Below are positions 48-51,800 of a DNA stretch of 64,000 bases, in pieces (the first letter of the stretch is position 1; each line of letters starts with the position of its first letter). The notes beneath the pieces were generated by a model. The model saw only the letters and a list, made by a program, of their open reading frames with translations, was not told the DNA's origin and ran no database searches. Origin of the DNA: Ascidia mentula. Taxonomy: Eukaryota > Chordata > Ascidiacea > Phlebobranchia > Ascidiidae. Position numbers and translations under genes: made by a program. The DNA is taken from positions 2,046,001-2,110,000 of the forward strand of contig OX387203.1 in the NCBI GenBank assembly GCA_947561715.1, in the 5' to 3' direction.

Positions 48-2801
48 CTGTTCAGCGTGGGAGTGAACAACATCTAAAGCGCTTCTAAACTGTTTTCCTA
101 CAGAAGTCCTCCAAAAAATGAAATCAGGGAATAGGTAAGGAGTCTCCATACGTTTGTTGTATATTTGAGCGATTTCCCTTACAGCTTTAATGTATGGGTG
201 TTTTTCTCTGAGGAAAAAAAAACACATTTGTTTTGCATTAGAAAATAAAGCCGTTCTAATGTACCTTTTCAGTTGACAATCGGTGTGTGACGACATAGCA
301 CATCTTAATATGGTATCCAATGCCATTAAATTGACGTCAACAAATACGTCGAATGAACGATCAGTCTGTTCCTCCCACTTGTCCAACATTATTTTGGTCG
401 ATTCGTCCACAACTTTAGCATAGCTGCGAAAGCACGATAATTTTTTAAAATGCATCCATTTTCGATCGAATCGCATTGGCACAGGTTTGTCTAACCCGAA
501 GGGCGCATGTGACGATTTCCCACATGACGAAAATGTGCCATTTGGTGCATATTTACATGGACTAGCATTCCGATTTGATCAGTATGATGGCTATTTACTA
601 TTTCAAACATCATCGTAAAGCATCATTTGTAGAGACAATTGCTGCGCATGCGGCGATTTCAGCGTGTGGGTATACATCCTGTCAAGTGGCACACAAACAT
701 ATTTCCAAATCGCTTTCGGCCCTTCAGCCAATAAATGATTAAACCCTCCTGCTTGGCGCTTGTGCATTGGTAAATTTGCTACACTTGCATACAGCGTAAC
801 AGTTTGGTATATACAAGTAACTTTGTTAAAGAGAATCAGAGACACATTTCACAAATTAAATACGCCATAGAGATCAATAATGAATTCCATTGGTTTCAAT
901 GATAGCTTGTTTTACTAAAAGATACAAATACTTTACTTTTACTATATCTAAAATCACTTGGACTGGTGAGACCTTACAGGGCGGAGCAGGGTGTGCACCT
1001 CTCTGCAGCCTTCATTGACTATTATAGCTCTTTTGCACATATTAAATCACTTGCTTTTTAAGTATGCTGAAATGAAAGACAGGCGTAAGCAGGTGTCTGT
1101 TCCTCTGCCATTTCTTTCCTTTGCTCGTCACCAACCCGTCTCCAATCCACGGACGCAAAAACCCGTATGCAAGTTCTGCTTTCGGTGCTGAAGAAAAAAG
1201 CTAAAATCATTCCTTGAAAATGCAACGATTGTTCAATTATTAGAACAGTGGTTCTTAATCAGTGGGAGATTATTGGGTTGTAGGTGGGTAATTGGTTGGC
1301 AACAAAATATACAAAAGTAGTTGGAAAAGAAATATTATGTTCTGTATTCACTGTATGTTGTACACTAATTGGCAATTGGTCATGCCATACAGTCGAAAAA
1401 GGTAAAAAATATATAACAGATATAGCGCAAATGCAATAATTAAACTCTTGGTTAGAAAAATTAAAGGCTAGTGGGAAGAAGGGATTTTGTTTAAACTGGA
1501 AACCGCTGTCCTAGAAAACACTGTTTGATACAAGGTTGCTAAATTTTCCTAAAATACCTCCACTTGAAAGTAAGGGAATAGCCACGTCCGGATGGTGCAG
1601 CGTTAACGCGGTGATGAGTGGCCCGAACCAGTGGTTCAGCATGGTCGGATTGGTTGAAAGTACTTTGCATCTGTTCAGAAGCCCCTCCTGGCTGGTCGTG
1701 AACTGCAAAATGTTTTGCTCATCATTTTGATCTTATTCAAGAATTTTAATCGGTCGGTCGGTGACACTGCAAGTTCCCGAATCCTGTACAGTGAAATTTT
1801 TAACTTTTAACAAAGCTTTAACAAAACAATTTGTGGCTCCACTCACTGTAACCTTCGGAAAACATGTAACTGTGATGTGGCAAAAAAGTTTTCTTCCCAT
1901 AACTTGCTTATCTGTTTAGGCCCAAGGGCAAACATTACGGTCACAACTTTACCAAGAGATACCACCTTGCCTACCATATGGTGGATATAGTTACTCGGTT
2001 ATAGTGGTTTGTTGAGTGTAGACTGAATACACGTTGGTAAAGGATTTGCGGAAATCATACTCAGCAAATACATAAGGTGCCGTTTATCGCAAGGAAAAAC
2101 GACAAGTCGCAGTTTTTGCCATGTATAATGGTATGTTGTTACGGGTATATCGAGGGAGGATGGATTTGTTATAGTGCCAAAAAAGACCCTGTAGTGACAG
2201 ACAAAATGTTATGAGATTAATTTTTCAACATTTCTTGTGCTTTGTCTGGCGCATACATAGCTATCCACATTTTTTCATTAGACTGGGATTTAAACCCACG
2301 TCATCCGGTCCACGAATTCCGATCACGTTTTCATCTTGTGACAGTCGGACGCCATGACTGCCGTTGCCGATTGCCCGTCAAAAAAACAGAATTTTAGTGC
2401 GTCATGATATGGTACGAACAGAAACCGCACGCCTCCACCCATATACAGAAACTTCCACAATAACATGTGGTATACTTAACACGCCTCACTCACGTATTTT
2501 TTAAATCAGTACTGAGGACACTGTTTATTTTTGAAACCATACAAAATTTTAACATTAAAGAACCATCAAATAGTGTGGCTGTAGTAAGATTGATATATAC
2601 CTCTTTATTGTGGCCGAAAAGCCAATGTTTCTTAGTACGTCCTGCGGCCTCTTCAAGGTATTGTACCAGCTTGTATCTTTCATGTATCGGCTTTACGATA
2701 TTCCAGATCACATAACCAAGGGTTATGAATAATATAAAATCCAAGAAAAGTTTTGAGGTGACAAAGCCACTTGTGAGAAATACAGCTTGCAAGAAGGACA
2801 T
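48..2801 (-). CDS. CYP4-type cytochrome P450, gene A (5' half; 3' half beyond window)
   Basis: N-terminal half of a CYP4 monooxygenase on the minus strand. Exons from 5' to 3': 2601-2801, 1558-1702, 1055-1187, 265-423, 48-207; exons 6-11 lie left of the window. The 266 residues include an N-terminal membrane anchor (about residues 15-37), the FGHNKE end of exon 1, and the C-helix stretch [11 protein letters not shown], whose WxxxR contacts a haem propionate in P450s. The start is the ATG of MSFLQAVF, matching the start of B; an in-frame ATG 14 codons upstream is not shared. Intron 3 uses a GC donor (GCAAGT), as in B. The gene is a near-identical tandem duplicate of B. A hammerhead-bearing element is inserted in intron 3, just beyond that donor. 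Product family is secure; substrate is unknown. Confidence 0.9.
961..1043 (+). mobile_element. Hammerhead mini-element, decayed copy in CYP4 gene A intron 3
   Basis: An 83-bp insertion with a decayed hammerhead core (CTGGTGA at 963-969, then a GACCT/AGG stem and CTCTGCAG) and the family tail ending TTTTGCACAT. It is bracketed by a perfect 10-bp duplication AAATCACTTG (951-960 and 1044-1053). The same site in gene B (6913-6922) is empty. It sits immediately beyond the GC donor of intron 3. Confidence 0.82.
2278..2365 (-). repeat. tRNA-like SINE fragment, family 2 (CYP4 gene A intron 1)
   Basis: On the minus strand: GATCGGAATTCGTGGACC followed by a B box GTGGGTTTAAATCCCAG. The matching piece at 8085 shows it predates the A/B duplication. 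Confidence 0.55.
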
Positions 2802-4323: not shown

Positions 4324-7300
4324 TTATAGCAAACGTTCAATTTTAACGTGGATTCCGTCCTTGCTTTGTAAGGTTATAAGAGCATGCATTATTGGTTCAG
4401 GTGTTTCTTCATCCAAGTACAGGCGATATCGTTGAAGTGTTTTGGCAAGCACTATCTTTATTTCATTCATGGCAAAATTCTGTCCGATGCAGTTTCTAAA
4501 ATAAGCAGATGCACTACATGTCGTTGCTTAGCATCATTTTCGATGTTTACTACAAGGTAGATCATCTGGCAATAATACTTCTTATAGTAATAAAAATACC
4601 TGGCAGCATGATTCAATGAATTAATTTAGATGCTTACCTGGGACCAGCAGAAAATGGTATGAAAGCATGTGGAGAACGCTTTGCTATATTCTCCTTCGTA
4701 AATCTCTCCGGATTGAATTCCTATTACATTACAGCGTATTTGAAATAGTGTAGTACATATATAAATCGTTTAGTGTTGCATTTTTACCAGCGGTTTATCC
4801 CAAATTAATTCATTGCGATGGTGGGCAAAAATGAATAGAAAGCAGTTTGTTCCTTTAGGTATCACAGTTTCGTAGTTCTTATTTAGTTTGCTTCGTAAAG
4901 TTATCGGTTCGTCCAAAGTCCTTCCAGTTCCATTTATAGGTGTGTATAATCTCATACTTTCTTTTATGAACATCGTCAAATACTCAAGTTTCGGCAAGTC
5001 ATTCCTGAAAATCATCAAAAACATGAGAAAGCAGAACAGCGTTATAAAAAATTCAAGAAACAATTCTAAACGTTGGGTTAGCGAGGTTTCCTGTTTGTCC
5101 TGTGAAAAATACGTAAACATTTCTCATTCATTATTTTAGTTTGTCTATGGTTGGGCCTGTACAGATGCGAGACAGATATGGTAAAATGTACCAAGGAATG
5201 CGGACAATATTTTCCGCAATCTTTTTTCTTTCAAAATTTACCATTCAACAGATTGCCTTTCTCCAAGCACTTCTTTTACCTCATCTCGACATTTTTCTTG
5301 CATATCAGGGTGTTTCGACAGGTTGTACATTGCCCAGGAAATAGCTAAAAAACGTTTTTCATTGGTTGTTTGAGATTAAAGTTGATTATTCCACTATTAA
5401 GCGCCAGTAGTTTTGTGAATATATTTACCACTTGCTGTTGTATCGTGTCCGGCAAGGAGAATTGTATTGACTTCATCTTTAATTTCACTATCAGTTAAAC
5501 CTTTACCGTCTTCATCCTAACAACAAAATAATCTTCAAGCAAGTTTACTAGCTTCGCAGCATATAGAGCTGGATAGGCCACCTTTTTTCGGACAAGCTAC
5601 TGGAACCCTGTGGATAGAGTGCTGTGCCTGGGTATCTCAGGGTCCTAAGTTCAAACCTTACCGAAAGCTTGATTTTTCAGATCTAGGGCAATTCTGCCAG
5701 ACATGCGGTTGCAGTTAATTAGCAGTAAATTAATGATTTAAAAAAAGTTTCCTTCGAATTTCAGTCTGACTCACCTTTGTCTGCAAAAGAATATCAAGAA
5801 AATCTAGCTTTCTTTTTCTCTTGTAGATAGATTCTTCATCGTCCAAATCGCTTGCTACTAAGTTGGGTTCCGCGTTTTGCAAAGCTTTGCGCCGTTCCGC
5901 AATTACCTGAAAATTTATGTTAATTGTTACCTCTGTAAAACCTTCCACGTAAAGTCAAATATTTTTCGATGGCAAACAAGTTGATGTTGAGAGTTGTAAG
6001 GGATTCTATCTCTGTGGTTTCATAATTAATTTTTAAACACGTTTTAGAGTTTAAACTGATACCAGGGTAATTTTGCATGAATGTTTTTGGATGAGTGAGT
6101 GTTGGAACAATGTAAGGACGGTCTTTAAAAAAGATTGAAACTTTGTTGGTAATGATCGAAATTCGCCTAAATGATTGTTTGTTCCTATACATAAAAACCT
6201 TTAACATAAAATATGCGTGTTTTAATACGAAAACCTGTTCAGCGTGGGAGTGAACAACATCTAAAGCGCTTCTAAACTGTTTTCCAATAGAAGTCCTCCA
6301 AAAAATGAAATCAGGGAATAGATAAGGAGTCTCCATACGTTTGTTGTATATTTGAGCGATTTCCCTTACAGCCTTAATGTATGGGTGTTTTTCTCTGAAG
6401 AAAAAAAACATTAGTTATGCATTAGAAAAAAAAGCCGTTAACATTGGTACCTTATAAGTTGACAGTCGGTGTGTGACGACATAGCACATTTCAATATGGT
6501 ATCCAAGGTCATTAGATTGACGTCAACAAATACGTCGAATGAACAATTAGTCTGTTCCTCCCACTTGTCCAGCATTATTTTGGTCGATTCGTCCACAACT
6601 TTAGCATAGCTGCAAAAGCACGATGTTATATTAAAATGTATCGAGTTTCGATCGAATCAAATGGCCTGCAAACATATTTCCAAATCGCTTTTTGACCATC
6701 AGCCTATGAATGATCGAACCCCCATGCTTGGCATTTACGCATTTGGCACTTTGCCAAATAGAAATCCGAGCCACATGTCTCGTTCGGAGACACATTATCA
6801 CAAATTAAAATCGACATAGAGAAGAATAAGAATTCCATAGGTTTCCATGGTAGCTTGTTTACTAACAGATGATGAATTCGTTGAAAAACGTTCTTTACTT
6901 TTACCATATCTAAAAGCACTTGCTTTTTAAGTATGCTGAAATGAAAGACAGGCGTCAGAAGGTGTCGGTTCCTTTGCCATTTTCTCCCTTTGCTCGTCAC
7001 CAATCCGTCTCCAATCCACGGACGCAAAAACCCGTACGCAATTTCCGCTTTCGGTGCTGAATAAAAAGTTAAAATGATTCCTTGAAAATGCAACGATTGT
7101 TCTATTCTTAAAACAGTGGTTCTTAATCAGTGGGAAATTATCGGGTTGTTAGGTGGGTAATTAGTCGGCACCGAAATAAACAAAAGCATTTGGAAAAGAA
7201 ATATTATGTTCTGAGTTCACTGTGTGTCGTACACCTATTGACCATTGGTCATGAAAGTATAAGAGAAAATGCAATAACTAAATTCTAAGTTAAAAAGTAA

Positions 7301-8718
7301 ATGCCAATGGGAAAAAAGGATTCCGTTTGAACTGAAAACGGAATCATTTTTTCCCATTGGCATTTACCGCTGTCCTAGAGAACTCTGTTTGATACAAGGC
7401 TTGCTACAGTTTTCCTAAAATACCTCCACTTGAAAGTAAGGGAATAGCCACGTCCGGATGGTGCAACGTTAACGCGGTGATGAGTGGCCCGAACCAGTGG
7501 TTCAGCATGGTCGGATTGGTTGAAAGTACTTTGCATCTGTTCAGAAGCCCCTCCTGGCTTGGCGTGAACTGCAAAATGTTTTGCTCAATATTTTGATCTT
7601 AGTCGAGAATTGCAAGTACCCAATCCTTGTACAGTGAAGTTTTAAACTATTTAAATAGCTTAAACAAAACATTTTGTGGCTCCACATACTGTAACCTTCG
7701 CAAAAATATTTAACTATGCTATGGCAACAATGCTTTTATTCCCATAACTTGTTTATCTGTTTAGGCGCCAGGTCAAACAACACGGTATTTACGGTCACAA
7801 CTTTACCGGGAGATACCACCTTGGATGGATAGAATTACTAGGTTATAGTGGTTTGTCGAGTGTAGGCTACACGTAGGTAAAGGATTGGCGAAAACCATAC
7901 TCAGCAAACACATAACGTGCAGTTTTTGTCATGTATAATGGTATGTTGTTACGGGTATGTAAGAAGAAAATATCGAGGAAGGATGGATTTGTTATAACAC
8001 TAAAAACGATTATATAGTGACAGACAGAAGGGTATGAGTTCATTTATAGTGCTTTGTCTGGCGCATACATAGCTATCAACATTTTTCATCAGACTTGGAT
8101 TCGAACCCACGTAATCCGGTTCACAAATTCCGATGTTTTCATCTTGTGACTGTCGAACGCCATTACCGACGTTGCCGAAACGGAATTTTAATGCGTCGTA
8201 ATAAGGCAAGGACAGAAACAGCACGCATCCACGCATATACAGAAGTCCCACATTAAAATGTGGTGTACTTAAAACGATTTCCACGCCTCAGTCACGAATT
8301 TTTGCGTCATAATGAGGTAAGGACAGAAACTGCACGACAGAAATCGCACGACAGAAACTGCACCCATATACAGAAAGTCCCACAATAACATAGATGTAGT
8401 ATATACTTAACACGATTTCCAGTCACGTATTTTGAGATCAGCATTTTAGACACTTTTTATTTTTGAAACCATACAGAACTTTAACACTAAAGAACCATCG
8501 AACAGAGTGGTTGATACCTCTTTATTGTGGCCGAAAAGCCAATGTTTCTTGGTAGGTCCTGCGGCTTCTTCAAGGTATTGTACCAGCTTGTATCTTTCAT
8601 GTATCGGCTTTACGATATTCCAGATCACATAACCAAGGGTGATGATTAATATAAAATCCAAGAAAAGTTTTGAGGTGACAAAGCCACTTGTGAGAAATAC
8701 AGCTTGAAAGAAAGTCAT
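4324..8718 (-). CDS. CYP4-type cytochrome P450, gene B (complete, 530 aa)
   Basis: Complete CYP4-like P450. Exons 5' to 3': 8518-8718, 7424-7568, 6924-7056, 6451-6609, 6235-6394, 5775-5906, 5429-5516, 5242-5344, 4788-5004, 4638-4720, 4324-4495; total 1593 nt including TAA. Seen: N-terminal anchor, I-helix [11 protein letters not shown]-helix KESMR (ExxR), FNPERF, and haem loop FSAGPRNCIG with ligand Cys about residue 476. Known of the family: CYP4 enzymes are ER-bound monooxygenases, often omega-hydroxylases of fatty acids and eicosanoids, and many attach haem covalently through a Glu in FEGHDTT. B has Ala332 at that place, unlike C, D and E. Intron 3 has a GC donor. Intron 6 holds a tRNA-like SINE, intron 2 a 30-bp palindrome, and a MITE lies just upstream of the start codon. 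Substrate is unknown. Confidence 0.93.
5590..5715 (+). repeat. tRNA-like SINE copy, family 1 (CYP4 gene B intron 6)
   Basis: A degenerate A box (GGATAGAGTGCTG) and B box (AAGTTCAAACC), then a tail AAGCTTGATTTTTCAGATCT and GCGGTTGCAG. The tail matches the minus-strand copy at 10640. Confidence 0.6.
7298..7366. repeat. 30-bp palindrome in CYP4 gene B intron 2
   Basis: Arms 7298-7327 and 7337-7366 are complementary with one mismatch, spacer 9 nt. Gene A has only one arm at the same place (around 1463-1490), so the second arm arose after the A/B duplication. Confidence 0.8.
8085..8170 (-). repeat. tRNA-like SINE fragment, family 2 (CYP4 gene B intron 1)
   Basis: Paralogue of the 2278 fragment; minus-strand B box GTGGGTTCGAATCCAAG. 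Confidence 0.55.
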
Positions 8719-8990: not shown

Positions 8991-9526
8991 TGGATTATAG
9001 GTGTGTGGTATTTGTGATAAAAATAAACAGGAAATTCAACGCACGGTAGAAGTTCTGCATACACTTTTTTTATCACCCTGTAGGTCGCTACCTAATTGAA
9101 TCATTTAGGAAGCGAATTCGGGATCATAAATTGTAAAAGAGCAAGCCACTTTTACAAGCAAAGGTCAGAAAAGAATTTAATGCAATTGTACTGATGAAAA
9201 ACATCGACGAAAGTGCTAAACCGTGTCGTTTCAACAGTGTTACAACTTCTAACAGCTGGCTACATATACTGCCTTATGCAAAACCTTTTTATAGAATGCA
9301 CAAGAGTGTGCAGTTAGCTGCTTATGGAGAGAATACTTCGTAATGTTATTTTCCGGCTACTGATGCTGTTTCTTACAGGAACCCGCAAGCCTCGATCGCC
9401 GACTGAAAACTCTTCATCACAAAGTCCACAGACAAACCGAATGCTTGCGTTGCCTTTTTTTCCTTTCTTCGCGTAAAACTTTTTCCCTCGATTTGCTTCA
9501 TTAATCACGCTTATAACTTCCATCCT

Positions 9527-9608
9527 GCCTGATGAGACCTTACAGGTCGAAACAGTGCGTGTACACACCCTGTCTGCAGATTTGCAATATTATGGCTTTT
9601 TTTGCACA
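9527..9608 (+). mobile_element. Hammerhead mini-element between CYP4 genes B and C
   Basis: An 82-bp insertion with a full hammerhead core: CTGATGA (9529-9535), stem II GACCT/AGGTC, GAAA, stem III ACAG/CTGT enclosing a GTGTACAC palindrome, and a GTC cleavage triplet ending at 9574. Stem I is short, about 4 bp with a bulge. The flanks are 15-bp near-perfect duplications (9512-9526 and 9609-9623). The paralogous region upstream of gene A (3376-3390) is empty. Confidence 0.85.
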
Positions 9609-10082
9609 TATAACTTCTATCCTATTATTAGGACTAACTTGAGTTGCGTACGTCAATATTTTATTTGAAAACATTTATAGCAATAATCCAATAAACAATT
9701 TTCACATAAATATGTAGACGTGAAGCGAACCCAAAGCAAATATCACTAAAGTGTGTACATTCAAAACCAACTGCATTATTACTGTCTTGTAACTATATAT
9801 ATTTGAAGAAGTCTCCCGGCTCTTCCATTAGATAGGACAAATGGAATTATAATATAAAGCTGAGAACCTCTATTTAATTGCCTTTCTTACCAATAAAATT
9901 ATCCAGCCGTTTTCTATATTGATTTTTCAAGATTCATTTCTACGTAGTTATTCTACATTAATCCCTTCTAACGAGGTTATAATTGTCTCTCAACTGAAAA
10001 AAAGAGAATTATTAATTGCTATGACTTACATAGATCTTTTGATGCCTTACTTAATGGTTTAGTTGTGCATGCAGGCAAAATA

Positions 10083-14340: not shown

Positions 14341-15694
14341 TACTGCCCAATTGAACCTTAGAAAACCTTAATGAAAACACTTAGTATAGCATAAAACTGT
14401 TAACTTTGTTAAGTTTTATGGCAACTGCTGTTTCGACCTACGAGGTCTCATCAGTGCAACTTGTATGGTGCGATTACAAACGTTCCTGTCGGTCAAACGC
14501 GTTCAGACAAAACAGTGTATGTCTGGAAAGTTGAATATTAACAAAGTTATCATCACGAGACTGGGAATATTTCAAGACAAACAAGGGCATGTAGCGCAAC
14601 TGACATAAACTACAACATTTTTGCAAGTAGCTGCAGGATGCCAGTCACTGCTGTATTGCGTGCAAATTCCAAAAAAATAGGCAAGACAACGAAACCTTTT
14701 CGAAAAGCGCAACACTATTTAGTTCTGAAAGTTTATGCAGGAAAGTTTATACCTCTCACCTTTTGGATACAAGAAATTGCTGACCAATAACTAAGGCTGT
14801 ACGTACACTACATGTACAACATATCTATACTGTGTAAGCCAATCACTCTCTATCAAAAAGGAGGGTGGCAATGTGTTTAGAAGTAAGAACAAAGAGCTTA
14901 ACAAACAGTTTCGACAAGGCGCTGATCTCTTTAAATAACCAAGAACGACTAAGTTGGCTGTATTTGCTACATTGCTTTCGCAAACAAAGTGGAAAATCTT
15001 CTTGTTAACTGACGCTGCAGCCAACAAGGACGATGTCAACATCGAATAGGTTTGCCCGTCATTGCGGGGAATTTGATCCAAGACCATGGGTTGATTCCTA
15101 AAGGTTCTTTATATGCACTAGTTTATAAATTCGCGTCCTATAGTCATTTCTAACGAGAGCAACTGACCACGCTGGCAAGGTTTCACATACATAGGCGAAT
15201 AGCATAGCACTAACCGAGCCAATCTTGGTGTATAAAACGTAGCCAGTTCAATCTAATAAAAATAAATTCTGAAATAGTAAAAATTTAACTGGACTCCAGT
15301 ACTTATGTGCGCTCACGCATACTGAATATACAGCACTAAACAAAAAACCTTGACGGCTTGCTGAATTGCTGCGGTTGTATCATGTTTATCCAACCGTGTC
15401 GATTTTCTCCAGTATTGCCGTATCTTTGTACCACTGCAATCGCAAAATTCGAGAGCATTAGGCGTTGTGTTCAGACTTAGACAACTAGATGTTTCGCAGC
15501 TTTTTTGAATTATACTGGAGTCAAAATGCAAATAGAATAAAAAGCACCGAAACCAACAAGAAAAACGCGTTTTACGTTGGTATGCGTTACATTGTACATT
15601 CAACTACAACCATTGCCATGTATTTTTGGTAATCCAATGTTAAAACTTACGTATTTGTGCAGTAGAATAAGTAGATGATAGAATTGTAAATAAA
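14341..15694. other. Divergent intergenic region between CYP4 genes C and D
   Basis: Shared upstream region of two head-to-head CYP4 genes. Apart from the hammerhead fragment no element or exon was recognised; any promoter signals could not be pinned down. Confidence 0.6.
14425..14460 (-). ncRNA. Hammerhead-like fragment upstream of CYP4 gene C
   Basis: On the minus strand the motif CTGATGA (14449-14455), a perfect stem II GACCT/AGGTC and GAAAC are intact. Stem III is reduced or lost and the family tail is missing, so this is a truncated copy. It lies about 90 bp upstream of the gene C start codon. Confidence 0.6.
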
Positions 15695-19758
<4,064 letters not shown>

Positions 19759-30416: not shown

Positions 30417-33400
30417 TCAAGCGGATCGACCATATATGGAAGAGGAATTAGGCTTGTAACGTTTCTTCACATCCAGCATCAGATGAGTCCAGATCAATTC
30501 CTTTAGCTGTAAATTTCGACAAACAGAATTATGCACAGTAAGTTACATGTTCGTTGTTCACTGCGGTAAAGGACTTGTCTGAGAATAACAAAAATAATCA
30601 CAACATTACAAGCATACGTCTATAATAAGTATCAACGAATCTTATTGCTTTCAGATTTAGTCTGAAATCATTGGGATTTCACAGTATTACTGCTACATAA
30701 AGTAAAGATATCACTTTGTTATTAAAACTTCTTTTACAAGAAAAAAGCTGCACTGATGAGACCTTTTAGGTCGAAACAGTGGCCATCTGTCTGCAGCTTA
30801 TACACAATTCATATTATTGGCTCCACATTGCTTATCATAAGAAAAAAAATGTTTGATTAATAAAAAGATATCTTGACATGTAATACAATAATCCTTTTTT
30901 TTAATAAACAGCACTATTTTAAAATGCAACGCTAGTATAGTCAGGAAGACGAGCATTTTTATACTCTTGTTTAGTTTAGTTTTAGGTAATTACTGGCAAA
31001 TGCTTTCATGTTTTTAACATTACTGAAGCTAACATTTGTTCATTGATTGTTTAACTCGCCACTTCTTGCAATGAATGGAGTGTTTCACTTTGACCAGAAG
31101 ATTCCTCCTTACTGACGGATCATTAATGTTTTCGCGTAAGCATTGGAATCGGTCCATGATCTGCAACATGAATAAACAGGTTTATATATTGCTTGGATGT
31201 ATATGTTAACATTAGCAGTTTACAATATATTTTTTGTAATTTTATACACTTTCTCACCAGGAATAAAGCATCCTCTACTCTGTCGTCGGTAGAGTCGGTT
31301 ATTTTTATGGTGTCCAAGATTAAACGAATAACATTCTAAACACAAAAATCATGATTCGTTACAAATTCTGATCACAAAATGGTTGACCCATAACGCAGAA
31401 AACATGACATATTTTATTTATTTGACTTATTCAGTAATAACTTGTGCCATGAAGTGCTGGCATTGCTACCAAACACAAGTAAAACATATTAATCATGACA
31501 CTATTTTGAAGTGTAAAAAGGGCAATTGAGATAACGTAACACACAACATTGTGGTGATAAATGAAAAATTTATTATCATCACAATATCTCAAAAAATGTT
31601 TCCGAATGTTAAGAAAACTTATTTTGAAATTTAGAGCAAAACTTTGTGAACAATTCCTTACATTTAGGGTATTTTGCTCAACAGATTTCCTTTTTCTTGA
31701 CTTTCCTCTTTGCAGAAGTTCATTTGCAGTGCAGTTGGCGGCCTCTGGTGGTTCCTGGGCACAAATAACAACAAAAAATCACAATATAACAAAATAAACA
31801 GCAAACAGTTACTGAAAGGTACCACAAAGTGGAAATTTTTCAGTCTCCCAATTTAATAGCCGGTCCAGTACCACAGTCACCAGGTGCACTGATGAGACCT
31901 TATAGGTTGGGACAGTGTGTACTACAATCTACAGTTCTCAAGCATTTTATTCTTTGAAGAAAAGTAATTTCATAATTTTATATTTCATAAAATTATTATA
32001 CTTCATTTCATAACAATGAAGAATTTTATTTAAAACCAAGCCAAAAAGTACTGAATATGCACAAAAAATGTAATCATACACTACACAAATATTATGTAAA
32101 CGTACTTGTTTGATTTCCGGATATCTTACATACAAATTTCTACGAAAATCTTCAGTAACGACACGAAAGTCTGGAGGCATGTCGCTCCGAGATACTTCTG
32201 ACACTTCAGGTAAGGCCTGAAAAAGCAATAATTCCTGTATATTTATGAGAAACTAAAAAAATGCGACTAACAAGCCCTATCCTGGCTCTGTCTCTGACAT
32301 GATAAGATATGACAATGATAAACTGTACATTGAATAACCATTAATAAACAAAAAAAAAGTATTTAATTTATTATGTTACCTGTGTCGGGGCATGTAGTGG
32401 AGTGTTGGAAGTAACTTGTACCACAGTTATGTCACCATCATTATCCACTTCTCGTTTCTTTCTGCAAATAAAAGCAAGATGTTGCAGCAATTTGTATACA
32501 CACAGAAAACACAATTGGATGAGTCACATTTTGTGTAAGTTTTTGGGACAATCATTTAGGTTTCAGTAATATTCTGGTATATTTTTTTCTGTAGTTAATC
32601 CAAATATTCGTGAATTCATATTAATTGCATACACCAGGATGGTCCAAACGTGGTAAATAGTTTCTTCCAACATACAGAGCACTTTAGAATAATTTCCAGT
32701 TAATAATGTTTTTAAAATATTTTTAAGATTGTTTTATGTTGAACGTTTTTGTTGTGTTTGGGAGAAGTTTTTAAGGAGTTAACTTATTTGTAGGCGGCAT
32801 TTGCAGTCCATTTATGTGCTGATACAGTATTACAGTTCCTTATCTTAATAAAGCAGGACCATTCTGTTACACACCACAAAACTTTTGCGTGGTTAAAGTT
32901 AACATTTACAACCACATATTTTGCATGTTCGTAAAAAAAATACCTTTTCCTTGTTGGTTCTGTAACAACGGGGGTGGAAACAACAGATGGAAGAGTTTGT
33001 ATATTCGGAACGAGTTTGGGATCAACTTTTCCGTGGAGACGAGTTTGTTCAAGTTGAAGTCTCTGCAGCTGTTGGTGTTGTTGACGAAGTTGCTCAACCT
33101 TTAAAAGTCCAACGTTTAGACTGAGGCATTTTAATAAAACATTGTTGAATTCTACACAACCCTTGTTATCAGTATATATAATAATAGTAGCACTTGGTAT
33201 TATACCTCTGCCATCATTATTTCACAGTTTAGCTTTTCCTGGGTAACCATTCCTGGATTGATTCTACAAATAAAGCAGACACAATGTTAGCATTTGTCTA
33301 TGAAATAATTTTAAAGTGAGCCATTGAATGTAAAATTTCAGGGTTACTATAAGTTTGCAAGCAGATAAATATTATAAAAAAATTCCATTGTGGCCAACAT

Positions 33401-39388: not shown

Positions 39389-41744
39389 ATGGGCTTATCT
39401 GCCATCGACATTAAGTTAATTCGAGATAGCTGGAAAAAGCTTGTGGACGCTGTCGGCCTGGAAACGTTGGGGTTGGTCGTTCTGCAAGGGTAAGTTCGTT
39501 CCTTTGAATGTTATGTTAAAACTATAGGCTGCATGCCACAAATCAATTATGCAAATCAATATGTTGCACGATTTTAAAATAAGATAATAAATTCATTTAA
39601 AACGTTTTCTGTTATCTAACTTGAATAAATTGATGTATTCTAGACTTTTCAACCAGGCCCCAGAGACAAGAGTGCTTTTTATCCAGTTGGGAATTAAAGA
39701 GGAAGGCGATAAAATGTACACAATTGAAGAGTTAAAGAGTATTGATAAAGTTCTTAAACACGCGAATGAGTAAGTAGCAGTAGGCTATGTTAAAAACCTC
39801 TCGCTTGTCCTCTGTCACCGATACAGTAGTTTGAATTGGAGTGGAAAGTAATACTGACCCAAATTTGCGTGTGTAAAAAGCAAGATTAAATGTGTTCTGA
39901 AAAATTAAATGAATATCAAAAGCAATCGCGATGTGCGAGTACCTTGTATCTTTGTATCCTCTACTAGTTAACCCTGGAAGATACAATCTTGTATACGAGA
40001 TGTTTGGCTATTTGCAACATAGTTTAAGGCGCTCTCATACACTAAGTAGAAATACCGGATCGGGATGCGGAAATATAGGATATGACCTGGGTTCGAATCC
40101 GGGTCGGGTAAAAAATAAACAAAAAAATCAAATATCGGCCCTCGACTTATATATCAAGCAGAAAACCTTATCAAGATTCATAGCTATAAGACAACCTTAT
40201 TGGCTCGAACCCAAGTTCGATAAACACAATAAATAAATAAAATGTGAAGAAACACCGGTCAAGGCGCTCGACTCAAACATTCAGGACAACCCGAAAATAG
40301 AAACTTGATCGGAATCCAGGATAACGTCAAATGTTCCGACAACGTTGACGGCCACATAACGCCTTAATCTTTTGGTCAAATGCAATGTAATACAGGAACA
40401 TCTTCTCAATAGCGATAATGTTTCGGTGTAGCCTATAGTCCATTGGGCATACAAATATATAATGCAAGTATTCAAAAGGCCAAACTTATGTAAACCTTTG
40501 AAATGTGATTTCGTTTTTAAGCAATCGCTTTCATGGAAAACCGTGTTCGCTGTGACAAGCGTTCCTGGATGGTAATAAAACATGATTTAAAATCGTTATA
40601 ATCTGAGCCTAATTGTTGTGCGATTTAATTGCGGTGGGTCGCAAGATACCCCACTGCACGCTTGCACGCACAATTGCATATAACTGCGTGTGGTAATTCT
40701 AACATGGCGTAATATTTTGAATTCTTGAGAAAGAATAAGCACTTATTACAACGTTTACGAAACTTATTGTAGTAATGTTTGTTATTACTTTACATATTTG
40801 TGGTTTGAATTAGTGCCAAAAACGTGTGGGGCGAATTGTGTAAAACTCGTTATTCCGAAATAGGCAAGCCCTGCAATCAGATGCAAACCTTTACGGTTCC
40901 CTGTGCGTTTCACCCTTTATTGATTCGACTTCGTTGGACGAGGTACGCGGCTAAACTTGCATTATATTCCACTAAGCCAAAGCCTAAAAGGATAAAATAA
41001 TCTTTCCTTCACCACAAAAACGTGCTTTTGTTATTTACCTGTTTTCTTTGCAGTCTCGCTAACACTGTGAATGTACTTCTAAGTATTTTGGAAGATACAG
41101 ACGCTGCTGTTCAAGCCCTCAAGGATTTGGGAAGTGTTCACGTCGCCCACAACGTCACACATAAACATATTGACGTAAGGTTGAAATAGATAAGTTTCAT
41201 GCATAAGCAATGGAGCCAATAATAGTTTTAAGTGAGCTGCAAAAAGGGCTACTTTTCGACCTATTAGGTTTCATCAGTGTAGCTTTATTGACCATACGAC
41301 GATTTTCCCACCAAACGGCTGGGGAACGGCTTGGTTGTATCTGGTCTGGTACCCAGCGGTGTCGCCGTCTACATAATCAAATTTTCGCCTACTGGTTTTG
41401 GCGTGCAAGATCGCCGTATAGTTCAACTGTACCGGATAAGGATGTTTGACAGATAATTGTATTCTGCACAACAGTAAAGTATTATGCCGTCTACAAAATA
41501 GAATACCACATATTTTTTCGCAATGAACAACCGAATTAAACGTTGGTTCGTTGGTTTAAGAACTCTTTAATATTTTGCACTGGTACAACTAATTAAGGAT
41601 AAATTTTATTTTTGATATTTTTAGACTCTTGGGCCGATTTTGTTGAACGTGATTTGCAGTAACCTGTCTCTACCAGAAACTTCGCCAACGGGCATTTCAT
41701 GGGGAAAACTATACACCATTATAGCTGCCTGCATGAAAGTATGA
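39389..41744 (+). CDS. Globin (four exons, 155 aa)
   Basis: Exons 39389-39489, 39644-39769, 41054-41174 and 41625-41744, 468 nt including TGA. The protein shows the globin pattern: A-helix LIRDSWKKLVD, LFNQAP in the B-C region, Phe46 as the probable CD1 residue, His73 (KHAND) as the distal E7 candidate, His105 in LGSVH as the proximal F8 histidine, and an H-helix with SWGKLYTIIAACMKV. Introns 1 (phase 2, end of B) and 3 (phase 0, before the G region) fit the two ancient globin positions; intron 2 (phase 2) falls within helix E. Reversible oxygen binding through a haem is the family role. The ATG follows a ttttacag acceptor 23 nt upstream, which may be a 5'UTR intron end or a trans-splice acceptor. 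Intron 3 carries a hammerhead relic. The E7-CD1 spacing is longer than in vertebrate myoglobin. Confidence 0.88.
40030..40115 (+). repeat. tRNA-like SINE fragment, family 2 (globin intron 2)
   Basis: CGGATCGGGATGCGG, then the perfect B box CTGGGTTCGAATCCGGG. A related headless piece (CTTGATCGGAATCCAGG) lies at about 40303. Confidence 0.55.
41207..41285 (-). mobile_element. Hammerhead mini-element in globin intron 3
   Basis: On the minus strand: CTGATGA (41271-41277), stem II AACCT/AGGTC with one weak pair, GAAA, a degraded stem III, TGCAGCTC for stem I, and the tail ATTATTGGCTCCA shared with the intact copy. Partly decayed; no clear target duplication was found. Confidence 0.65.
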
Positions 41745-48860: not shown

Positions 48861-51800
48861 ATGGCAGATGAATCGGTAAATGAAACTTAATAGACAAATA
48901 GTAGAATAACAGGTTTACAGGCTTCGCAGCCAAGCAATCAGGGGCCATCCTGCCAATCATACCAGTGTGTAAAACATTACCACTTAGTCGATTAAACAAA
49001 TACTTCTTTTGTCACAAGGCCAACTCATGGTTTGCTGCGTTTGTGATGTTCGTGACTGCTCCTCTGGGATTTTTTTGCGTCGGTTTTCATTTCACAGCGC
49101 TCGGCCCCATTATACCAGCTCTACACTCCATGTACAACTCCACGTACATCGTAAGTAACCACGAAAATAAATTAAGTTACCGTTGATTTTATTTGTTGTA
49201 AGATTCCTTGCGGAAATTTGCGAAATGCGGCAAATTCTGGATATTTTTAAAGTCGTTTGACCCAGCAGTTATTTTTGCATTGCACAAAAATATTTTAACG
49301 TATGGATGACAGGACAATAAAATTAAATAGTAAAGTGGCAATCGGCCCCGAAAACCGCGTCCTTGCGATAAAATGATAAAAGTCAGAATTATCCAAATAC
49401 CAACAGATTTTCCTGCGAAAAAAATTGTTGCTACTAAAGGCATTGTTATTTGTTTAGGAGAGAAATGGTGTTCCAATTCCTGACGACAAGTGGCTTCTTC
49501 TCCTAACCCTTACAATGTCGTTTCTCATTGTTGGTGGCATCATAGGAGGAACGAGCAGCAAAATTATGCTTTGTTTTCTTTCCGGAAAACGTTTACTGCA
49601 ACTTTGCCACGTGCTTAACATTATAGGAGTTCTCGTCATGTCATTGGTCGCTGGAATCACGTGGTCGTACGAAGCGATGATCATTGGTCGATTGTTCAGC
49701 GGTTTTCCTCTTGGTGTCTTTTATGGTGTGTTAATTTTCACTAGTAGAGACAATGCATCAGGTCATGAAAACATGAGTCTAATTTATTCACAATTAATTC
49801 ATTATCAATGATGAAACATTATTATTATGTTTCTTTTTGTTTGTATAGCTCTGCTGCCGTCTATGGTTACGCAATTGTGTGCGAGAAAGAGAATACCTGT
49901 TTGGCAAAGTTATGGTGGAATAAGTTTATCAGTTGGCTGTCTGCTCGGTCCATCATTTGCACATCCGAAGGTAACTAGATCCAACTTGTACATTTACGAA
50001 CCTTGCCGTTGTTTTATCACTCAAATACAGGAATTGTGGTTGTCAATCAATCCTGGTTACAAAATCCAAACCATTTTTTTCCAATTTTTGTTCCTCTAGG
50101 CGCTGGGCAACATCCATTACTGGCCTGTGCTGGTTGCAATCGCAGCAATCCCATCTTTGATTTATTTAATCACAAGCCCTTGGATTCCAGAGTCGCCGTT
50201 TTATTTGGTTCGAAAATCGCAGTTGAAAGAAGCAACGGAGTCTTTGAAAAGGTTACGAAAAGGAAGCACAGTAAGCTTTGGAGTCCAGTGTCAAACGTAG
50301 TTTTATATACGTTTCATTCCAGAGCGACTGCAAAAGGGAACTTGACACAATTGAAACCGAAGTGAACAAGAGCAGCAAGCTTGTTGGAGTGAAAGAACTA
50401 TTCAGAACAAAACAATACAGGTATTTTGTTGCCTATTGAAAACACAGACGTGTCACAGTTGTGAGTACAAAACAACCAAACCATAAAAAAAATACTTAAT
50501 TTTATTAAAGACGTGTACATATCCATTTATCAAAAAAACTTGCCGAAAACAGTAACCATGAAAAAAAATCTTACCTTTAGAAACCAAGCCTTGACTATTA
50601 TTGCTGTGTATTCGGGATTCATGCTTACTGGAGTCAACAACTTTGTCATCTACACTGACCAAGTGTTTTTGCAAGCCAACATTGATCCGGAAATTGTCAC
50701 TTTCTGTACAATCGGAGTTTTTGCTCTGCAAGTTTTTGCAGGAATAATCGGTGTAAGTGTCAAAAATTCCTGAATCAATCTACCTTCAGTTTCATCTGGA
50801 AACATATTCCAAAAAGTCTATACCAACACATGGCAATTTTAAGGCTTTTGGTTTAAATTGATCCAGTTTTCTTATTCTGTAGTCGCATGACAATTTTAAT
50901 TTATTTTTAATCAAATTTCAACATTACTTAAAAATTTTATAATCATCTTTGTTACGTTTTAGTCCAGGTTAGTTGATCGGTTCGGTGGAAAGAAGGTTAA
51001 TGTCGGTGCAAACATTTCCATAATTTTTGCTCTCACCTTATTCACAATAAGTCAAACAACAGCTCACCTCGCACCCAATGTAATGCCTTACTTTGCTATC
51101 ATCTCTGTTGCGATCTTCATGGTTAGGTTAGTGATGCTTTCATAGTAATAATTAATACAAATTGTACTTATGGCACTTATATTACGTTTGTGTTTTTTGT
51201 AACCAACGTTATAACCCTAAGGAAGTCTCGCAAGATTGTGGAAGAAACGTTGGTTACAATAAACACTTTCCTAACTTAAGTGCCAGAGGAACGATTTCTT
51301 TTAATTACTATGCTTAGAATAGCTCTATAAAGTAACATAGTTTTGTTTCCCATGAATGTGGAGGTCGTATTACTTTCCCTTCTTCTGTGGTCCAATTTTT
51401 GCCAAACACAAAAATGCTGTCGTGCAATAGGAGATAATATTGCGTGTTATTGAAGGCTTGTTTTCTTTCTGGACAACGCAAATAGATTGAAGGCTGCAGA
51501 AAGCTGTTGTTTACTTGTTGTTAGTTCTGTACCGGTGGAATGAATATAAGATGAGATTTTATGATAAGATCCTTCAATTAATCCGCTTTTAATTATGTCT
51601 GGGATTAGAATAATCAGAACATGCTTTGAAGATGCATTGTAACTATATGCGTTGTCTCGACGTCGGGCTTTTTGCGTAAACCCTCCCGACCGTCTGGAAT
51701 TCAGTTAACCGCGGTGACAGCAGATTGCAAAACATCAGGCACACCTTAATCCGCGAAGCCATGGACGCACGAGACAAATACTCACGTTTCTTGATTTTGT

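Follow-up and report, generated by a model that had tools for sequence, protein, structure and literature searches.

Insertion scars support Penelope-like element machinery as the mobilizer of a hammerhead retrozyme family in the ascidian Ascidia mentula

Short repeated DNAs with a type I hammerhead ribozyme include a schistosome short interspersed element (SINE) and newt satellite 2. For the metazoan retrozymes, Cervera and de la Pena (2020) considered Penelope-like elements (PLEs) to be "a strong candidate" to mobilize them (PMC7229834), and a 2020 review named PLEs as likely candidates (PMC7761336). The main text of the former paper never uses the words "inverted", "tail" or "truncated". 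Among the PLEs themselves, Arkhipova (2013) described head-to-head pseudo-long terminal repeats (pLTRs), an optional 31-bp tail on one of the two, and duplications of 8-10 bp (PMC3846280), and Frangieh (2024) found in vitro that a PLE cleaves both strands and extends them, starting at two internal sites that bound the "tail" (PMC11167929). The Didemnum genome was reported to hold 9 type I hammerhead loci (PMC8704543). No report of an ascidian retrozyme, or of retrozyme insertions with PLE scars, was recognized in the open-access literature, subscription papers not being covered. In this work we analyzed a 64,000-nt stretch of Ascidia mentula DNA (assembly GCA_947561715.1, contig OX387203.1, positions 2,046,001 to 2,110,000; the whole stretch is referred to as the window), in which a hammerhead-bearing repeat copy lies at 30747..30838 on the plus strand. 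We concluded that this feature is very probably a 5'-truncated copy of a non-autonomous metazoan retrozyme, inserted by PLE machinery via two-strand priming.

The hammerhead motif spans 30745..30798 on the plus strand and was identified by direct reading, by a strict descriptor and by a covariance model. Stem I has 8 bp (AAGCTGCA/TGCAGCTT); the core CTGATGA, a 5-bp stem II (GACCT/AGGTC) and GAAA follow, and stem III has 4 bp (ACAG/CTGT, with A15.1-U16.1 counted in) next to the triplet GUC. Cleavage is predicted between 30791 and 30792 (GUC^U), and at the outer end of stem I one or two A-U pairs may derive from the target duplication or the flanking A-run. A preliminary description of this DNA had called the motif a complete type I hammerhead, and every part it named was read at 30745-30799; judged by its sequence, it is a type I hammerhead, with three helices round CTGANGA, GAAA and UH and with stem I open. 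The strict descriptor (CTGANGA, GAAA and UH, with 5 bp or more in stem I, 4 in stem II and 3 in stem III) matched this one place in the 64-kb window and 0 places in 100 dinucleotide-preserving shuffles, on which ground a chance hammerhead was rejected. The looser pattern CTGATGA-N-GAAA was observed 7 times in the window versus 1.16 expected. A bacterial or phage origin was considered and set aside: a loose core pattern matches 60 stretches of viral contigs, which we take to be ordinary phage hammerheads. Covariance model R1, built on 38 genomic copies all from outside the window, scored the motif at 85.6 bits (E 4e-22). It also matched at 9522 (+), 41235 (-), 14423 (-), 18711 (-) and 31881 (+) and, weakly, at 955 (+) (23.6 bits, E 2e-4) and 18751 (+) (21.1 bits, E 1e-3); two more matches (E 0.15 and 0.92) were left out of the count. 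The six related copies listed earlier at 961, 9527, 14425, 18706, 31885 and 41207 were all recovered by R1, several of them decayed.

The ascidian mitochondrial code was recognized in COX1, where AGA/AGG read as glycine at positions that we presume to be conserved. The assembly copy searched has 195.8 Mb in 79 contigs, the window contig being C71; the published A. mentula assembly is slightly larger, 197.0 Mb in 95 scaffolds (PMC11109543). The exact core CTGATGAGACCT..GGTCGAAACAG gave 1638 genomic matches (824 and 814 on the two strands) and the reversed-pattern control 0, which bears out the earlier expectation of other genomic copies. The family 1 unit is 285 bp, numbered from the base after the predicted cut: array L099 contains six direct copies ~285 bp apart and one inverted copy alongside, and further tandem arrays were found in L101 and L102. 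Family 2, of which one full unit was read (L100), has a 295-bp unit with the ribozyme and part of the tail in common with family 1. A diverged hammerhead beside a PLE copy (L125:686-743), with other sequence after the ribozyme, is perhaps a third family. With a unit between 150 and 450 bp, a type I hammerhead and tandem copies, the repeat fits the metazoan retrozymes classed as lacking long terminal repeats (non-LTR). Neither a reverse transcriptase nor the PLE hallmark of reverse transcriptase plus a GIY-YIG frame has room in units of 285 and 295 bp; the retrozyme would be a passenger rather than a PLE itself. In a separate observation, copies at C1:1.4-2.0 Mb (L145, L146, L149-L151 and L153-L156) have common flanks within each group, so these spread by duplication of the surrounding DNA and not by transposition.

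The window feature comprises the 3' portion of the family 1 unit, ribozyme and tail, and is truncated at its 5' side: its 92 bp correspond to unit positions 241-285 followed by 1-47. The preliminary description had seen a dispersed 80-92 bp element made of ribozyme and tail only. Its copies are indeed dispersed; the fixed size and the minimal composition did not hold, as the same unit occurs both as tandem multimers and as pairs placed head-to-head. A mini-retroelement with an RNA of ribozyme plus tail only, moving as an 85-92 nt circle, would account for the 92-bp copies with target duplications, and for the pile-up of match starts at the ribozyme 5' border (18/109 within the nine unit positions 235-243), which makes copies of ribozyme plus tail frequent. 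But the sizes of insertions with duplications form a continuum, 43 to 1823 bp, with no gap around 92, copies begin at many other unit positions, and the arrays seen consist of 285-bp units, with no tandem 92-bp array in the sampled loci. We regard such a mini-element as very improbable, and would expect circles of ~285-295 nt rather than 85-92. The pile-up at 235-243 might result from strand transfer at the inverted repeat of stem I, or from upstream divergence between subfamilies. A 27-mer from the tail occurs at 848 places in the genome with at most 3 mismatches and a 49-mer running beyond the tail at 177 places with at most 3 mismatches, the longer pattern being the stricter; this gap suggests that most tails end near the end of the window copy.

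Insertion anatomy was examined in three samples: exact-core matches on contig C1 (27,920,005 bp) taken in order from 0.30 to 5.35 Mb (L001-L008, L099, L100 and L143-L182, leaving out one pair at C1:4552388/4552800); the 30 loci that best matched the window copy (L069-L098); and selected pairs and arrays (L101-L105). Window copies were added. Subtraction of 22 duplicate loci and one locus-edge cluster from 97 clusters left 74 insertions, a sample to be set against the 1638 exact cores in the genome; L179 on C1 shares flanks with L097 and was counted there, outside the C1 subset. Direct repeats of 9-14 bp were present at the edges of 38/74 insertions, with a mode of 12 (exactly 12 bp in 18/38). 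In a first run, duplications of at least 9 bp were found in 34/75 insertions versus 0.43 expected from randomly re-paired flanks. These target duplications agree with the retro-origin proposed in the preliminary description. Among insertions with duplications, the outer ends fall at two places in the unit: ~10-19 (tail-less) or ~39-50 (tailed) in family 1, and ~10-11 or ~36-40 in family 2. Twenty-three of the 24 two-ended insertions with duplications are head-to-head with one tailed and one tail-less end, the tail being ~33 nt; two tails or two tail-less ends occur in none of the 24, and one is unclear. In the C1 subset, which was not selected for tails, mixed ends were found in 8/8 two-ended insertions with duplications, and those without duplications comprised 2 mixed and 1 unclear. 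Fourteen insertions with duplications are one-ended and 5'-truncated, of which 9 are tailed, 4 tail-less and 1 unclear; L081 (the same insertion as L082), classed as one-ended, has an inverted tail-less end of 15-16 nt fused via the stem I palindrome.

Within one insertion, the two arms on average resemble each other more closely than arms across insertions do (mean rank 0.72 in the 22/31 family 1 pairs with at least 45 aligned bases). This similarity and the private unit differences in L099 fit one template per insertion, and do not decide between a rolling circle and a multimer. An enrichment of left ends at the cleavage site, as expected of cleaved linear templates, is not claimed, as few matches start at or near unit position 1 and several of those that do are artefacts of the query boundary. 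The inverted head-to-head ends and the fairly constant duplications could also be read as a DNA transposon resembling a miniature inverted-repeat transposable element (MITE), with hammerheads in its inverted ends by accident. However, the ends are unequal, one with a tail and one without, many copies are one-ended, tandem multimers exist and arm lengths vary freely; a MITE-like origin is scarcely credible to us.

A target motif was derived from 27 empty sites, oriented with the tailed side to the right (30 insertions with 11-14 bp duplications, minus L158, L090 and a small one in L147). The consensus is AAAC-N12-GTTT, in which the 12 bases are AT-rich. Read outward over the 27 sites, the four letters were G 15, T 22, T 20 and T 16 from the tail-less side and G 11, T 20, T 19 and T 14 from the tailed side. 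Since the element follows the duplication on both sides, both strands would be cut just before GTTT if the cDNAs were primed from target 3' ends, and such a cut would leave 12-nt 3' overhangs. In the window, the left duplication AAGAAAAAA lies at 30738..30746 (8 or 9 bp, the boundary with stem I being ambiguous), and the right target segment AAGAAAAAAAAT at 30839..30850, of which 30839-30847 match the left copy. The duplication is A-rich and weak taken alone. With TTTTAC preceding it on the left, and AAGAAAAAAAAT followed by GTTTG from 30851 on the right, the window site reads TTAC-N12-GTTT and thus fits the family motif. The tail at 30806..30838 (+) runs from the tail-less end point (~unit 14) to the tailed end point (~47). 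The preliminary description had noted a tail of roughly 40 nt, and its TTGGCTCCA is indeed there; the tail itself is of PLE type, a segment between two alternative insertion end points.

We then compared these scars with resident PLEs of four families. A GIY-YIG profile was scored on 150 of 382 candidates and gave 121 matches. Both domains, RVT_1 (reverse transcriptase) and GIY-YIG, are present in families A and B, and PLE untranslated regions hold sequences resembling minimal hammerheads. The relation to animal retrozymes and PLEs drawn in the preliminary description holds. All 16/16 fully readable PLE insertions have mixed ends, and 15 of them have 12-14 bp duplications. Family A accounts for 5/5, all five with 12-bp duplications and with end points ~37-44 bp apart; family B for 5/5 readable pairs, with duplications of 12-14 bp as matched; family C for 5/5 readable pairs, with duplications of 12-13 bp; and family D for 1/1, a single insertion in which no duplication was found. 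For families B, C and D, the ends were assigned by eye, from the flanks. In these counts L133 was merged with L124 and L117 with L116, pair C69a was left out as unreadable, and one more family C pair (pair C1) has its tail-less end beyond the stretch examined. In a PLE array at G000:C67:6134028-6146916, units follow each other at a spacing of 2870 bp, three of them direct and two reversed; open frames reach 892 aa, and a single 12-bp duplication surrounds the entire array.

Target duplications and 5' truncation are also features of long interspersed elements (LINEs), and target-primed reverse transcription with twin priming by a LINE would be another way to obtain inverted arms. Twin priming in LINEs can produce inversions, but these are internal. 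In the retrozyme, both outer ends of the two-ended inserts are end points on the RNA 3' side, facing head-to-head, and the two fixed end points, ~33 nt apart, are each used once, as in PLE families of the same genome; judged from these ends, mobilization by a LINE appears improbable to us. The retrozymes and the resident PLEs are alike in mixed ends and in duplication length, and these shared scars, read from the sequence, support PLE machinery as the retrozyme mobilizer.

The life cycle that we propose would begin with transcription of tandem retrozyme copies. The hammerhead, if active, would cut the multimers into monomers, which would probably be circularized, and a PLE would reverse-transcribe the retrozyme RNA. 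The endonuclease would cut both strands ~12 bp apart, each just 5' of GTTT, to leave two 3' overhangs, and each overhang would prime at one of two internal sites, ~unit 14 (no tail) or ~47 (tail). Two-ended insertions would nearly always use one site of each kind, the two cDNAs joining head-to-head; where one cDNA is absent or short, the product would be a one-ended, 5'-truncated copy such as that at 30747-30838. The use of one of each end suggests coupling in vivo. We lean slightly toward a broader proposal, in which PLE integration is a coupled two-strand reaction with a 12-nt stagger and a dyad motif (in the retrozymes, a cut before GTTT on both strands), the two overhangs starting at different internal sites, one each. 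The "optional tail" would then be obligatory on exactly one end of two-ended insertions, and animal retrozymes would exploit the reaction in trans as the PLE counterpart of SINEs. To the strong or likely candidacy of PLEs in previous work (PMC7229834, PMC7761336) the A. mentula genome adds a physical signature, and for models of PLE integration the "optional" tail becomes a quantitative rule (23/24 retrozyme insertions with duplications, 16/16 readable PLE insertions).

Several results weigh against this interpretation. For the ribozyme, the covariance-model check proposed in the preliminary description succeeded with R1 and failed with Rfam: no Rfam model reached its gathering threshold in the window (a curated cut-off, not a structural feature), and the sole sub-threshold ribozyme match was RAGATH-1-hammerhead (26.2 bits, E 4; cut-off 56.3), so that Rfam at its thresholds misses the window copies. 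Energy minimization of the 55-nt motif slightly favors another fold, at -18.3 kcal/mol versus -16.9 for the hammerhead (a gap of 1.4). Covariation, tried as proof of structure, was dropped as uninformative within the family because the copies are too alike: 95.4% of helix cells are paired, with covariation not above shuffles. For the insertions, no recognizable duplication was present in 36/74, and of these 10 are two-ended, 7 of them unclear and 3 mixed. In the exception L088, one end is tailed and the other stops within the ribozyme. The end classes rest on position windows set after the data were seen, and L069-L098 were picked with a query that included the tail and favors tailed copies, hence tail frequencies can be taken fairly from the C1 subset only. 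In vitro, no difference in start site between the strands was observed (PMC11167929). Tail hairpins predicted in both retrozyme families were no better than shuffles (z -1.4 and -0.7), and a conserved tail hairpin as recognition signal was rejected on this ground. The retrozyme tail sequence was not seen, by eye, in any of the four PLE families, so the attempt to name the helper PLE by a common tail failed. The flank letters of families A and B are unlike those of the retrozyme; in family C, GTT starts the tailed-side flank at 4/6 sites, and the flanks hence point, weakly, to a helper of C type more than of A or B type.

The other retrozyme copies in the window are varied. A head-to-head insertion of 141 bp occupies 18706..18846, between 12-bp duplications GTACGTTGTATT at 18694..18705 and 18847..18858. 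Its tail-less end holds an R1-matched hammerhead at 18711-18759 (-), and its tailed end, of which the final 9 bases are unaligned, a decayed one at 18751-18814 (+), a weak R1 match that faces the first. Two truncated family 2 copies have tailed ends: one of 83 bp at 961..1043 (+), with a decayed hammerhead and a 10-bp duplication AAATCACTTG at 951-960 and 1044-1053, and one of 88 bp at 9521..9608 (+), with a 9-bp duplication TATAACTTC at 9512-9520 and 9609-9617. A fragment at 14423..14462 (-) holds the 5' half of a hammerhead, and 31881..31936 (+) is a decayed, family 2-like hammerhead copy matched by R1. The diverged copy at 41203..41319 (-) has a tailed end and a hammerhead at 41235-41285; a duplication was looked for around it and none was found.

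Apart from the retrozymes, window positions 1-30000 carry cytochrome P450 gene pieces (PF00067 in 2/3 frames tested) with repeats in both orientations, and 43000-64000 a tandem array of sugar-transporter-like pieces, whose units measure ~5.0-5.6 kb and are in places up to 99% alike. Three frames tested there matched PF00083, one of them just under the Pfam cut-off. A near-perfect 32-bp hairpin at 7297-7367 (97% complementary, 7-nt loop) looks like a MITE or fold-back element; two MIR models match it below threshold. An inverted 65-bp pair at 51146-51310 (78% complementary, 35 nt between) has relatives among the arms of other transporter-array units.

Compared with known systems, the A. mentula family resembles the metazoan non-LTR retrozymes (PMC7229834) in its type I hammerhead, tandem units (~170-400 nt in that group) and many copies, and in the coexistence of PLEs and duplications longer than 4 bp. 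It differs in being ascidian, and its head-to-head inserts and pairs of tailed and tail-less ends are not in that paper, judging by the words absent from its main text. The plant LTR retrozymes (PMC4918200) are likewise non-autonomous, with a hammerhead and a proposed circular RNA; unlike the present family, they have type III hammerheads in LTRs and 4-bp duplications (according to PMC7229834). With the PLEs of Penelope/Poseidon type (PMC11167929, PMC3846280) the family shares head-to-head inverted ends, a tail of ~30-40 bp on one copy, short duplications, tandem arrangement and a hammerhead near the end. In contrast to the A. mentula PLEs, whose hammerhead-like sequences are minimal, the retrozyme hammerhead has a stem III, and the retrozyme unit is too short to encode the reverse transcriptase that PLEs carry.
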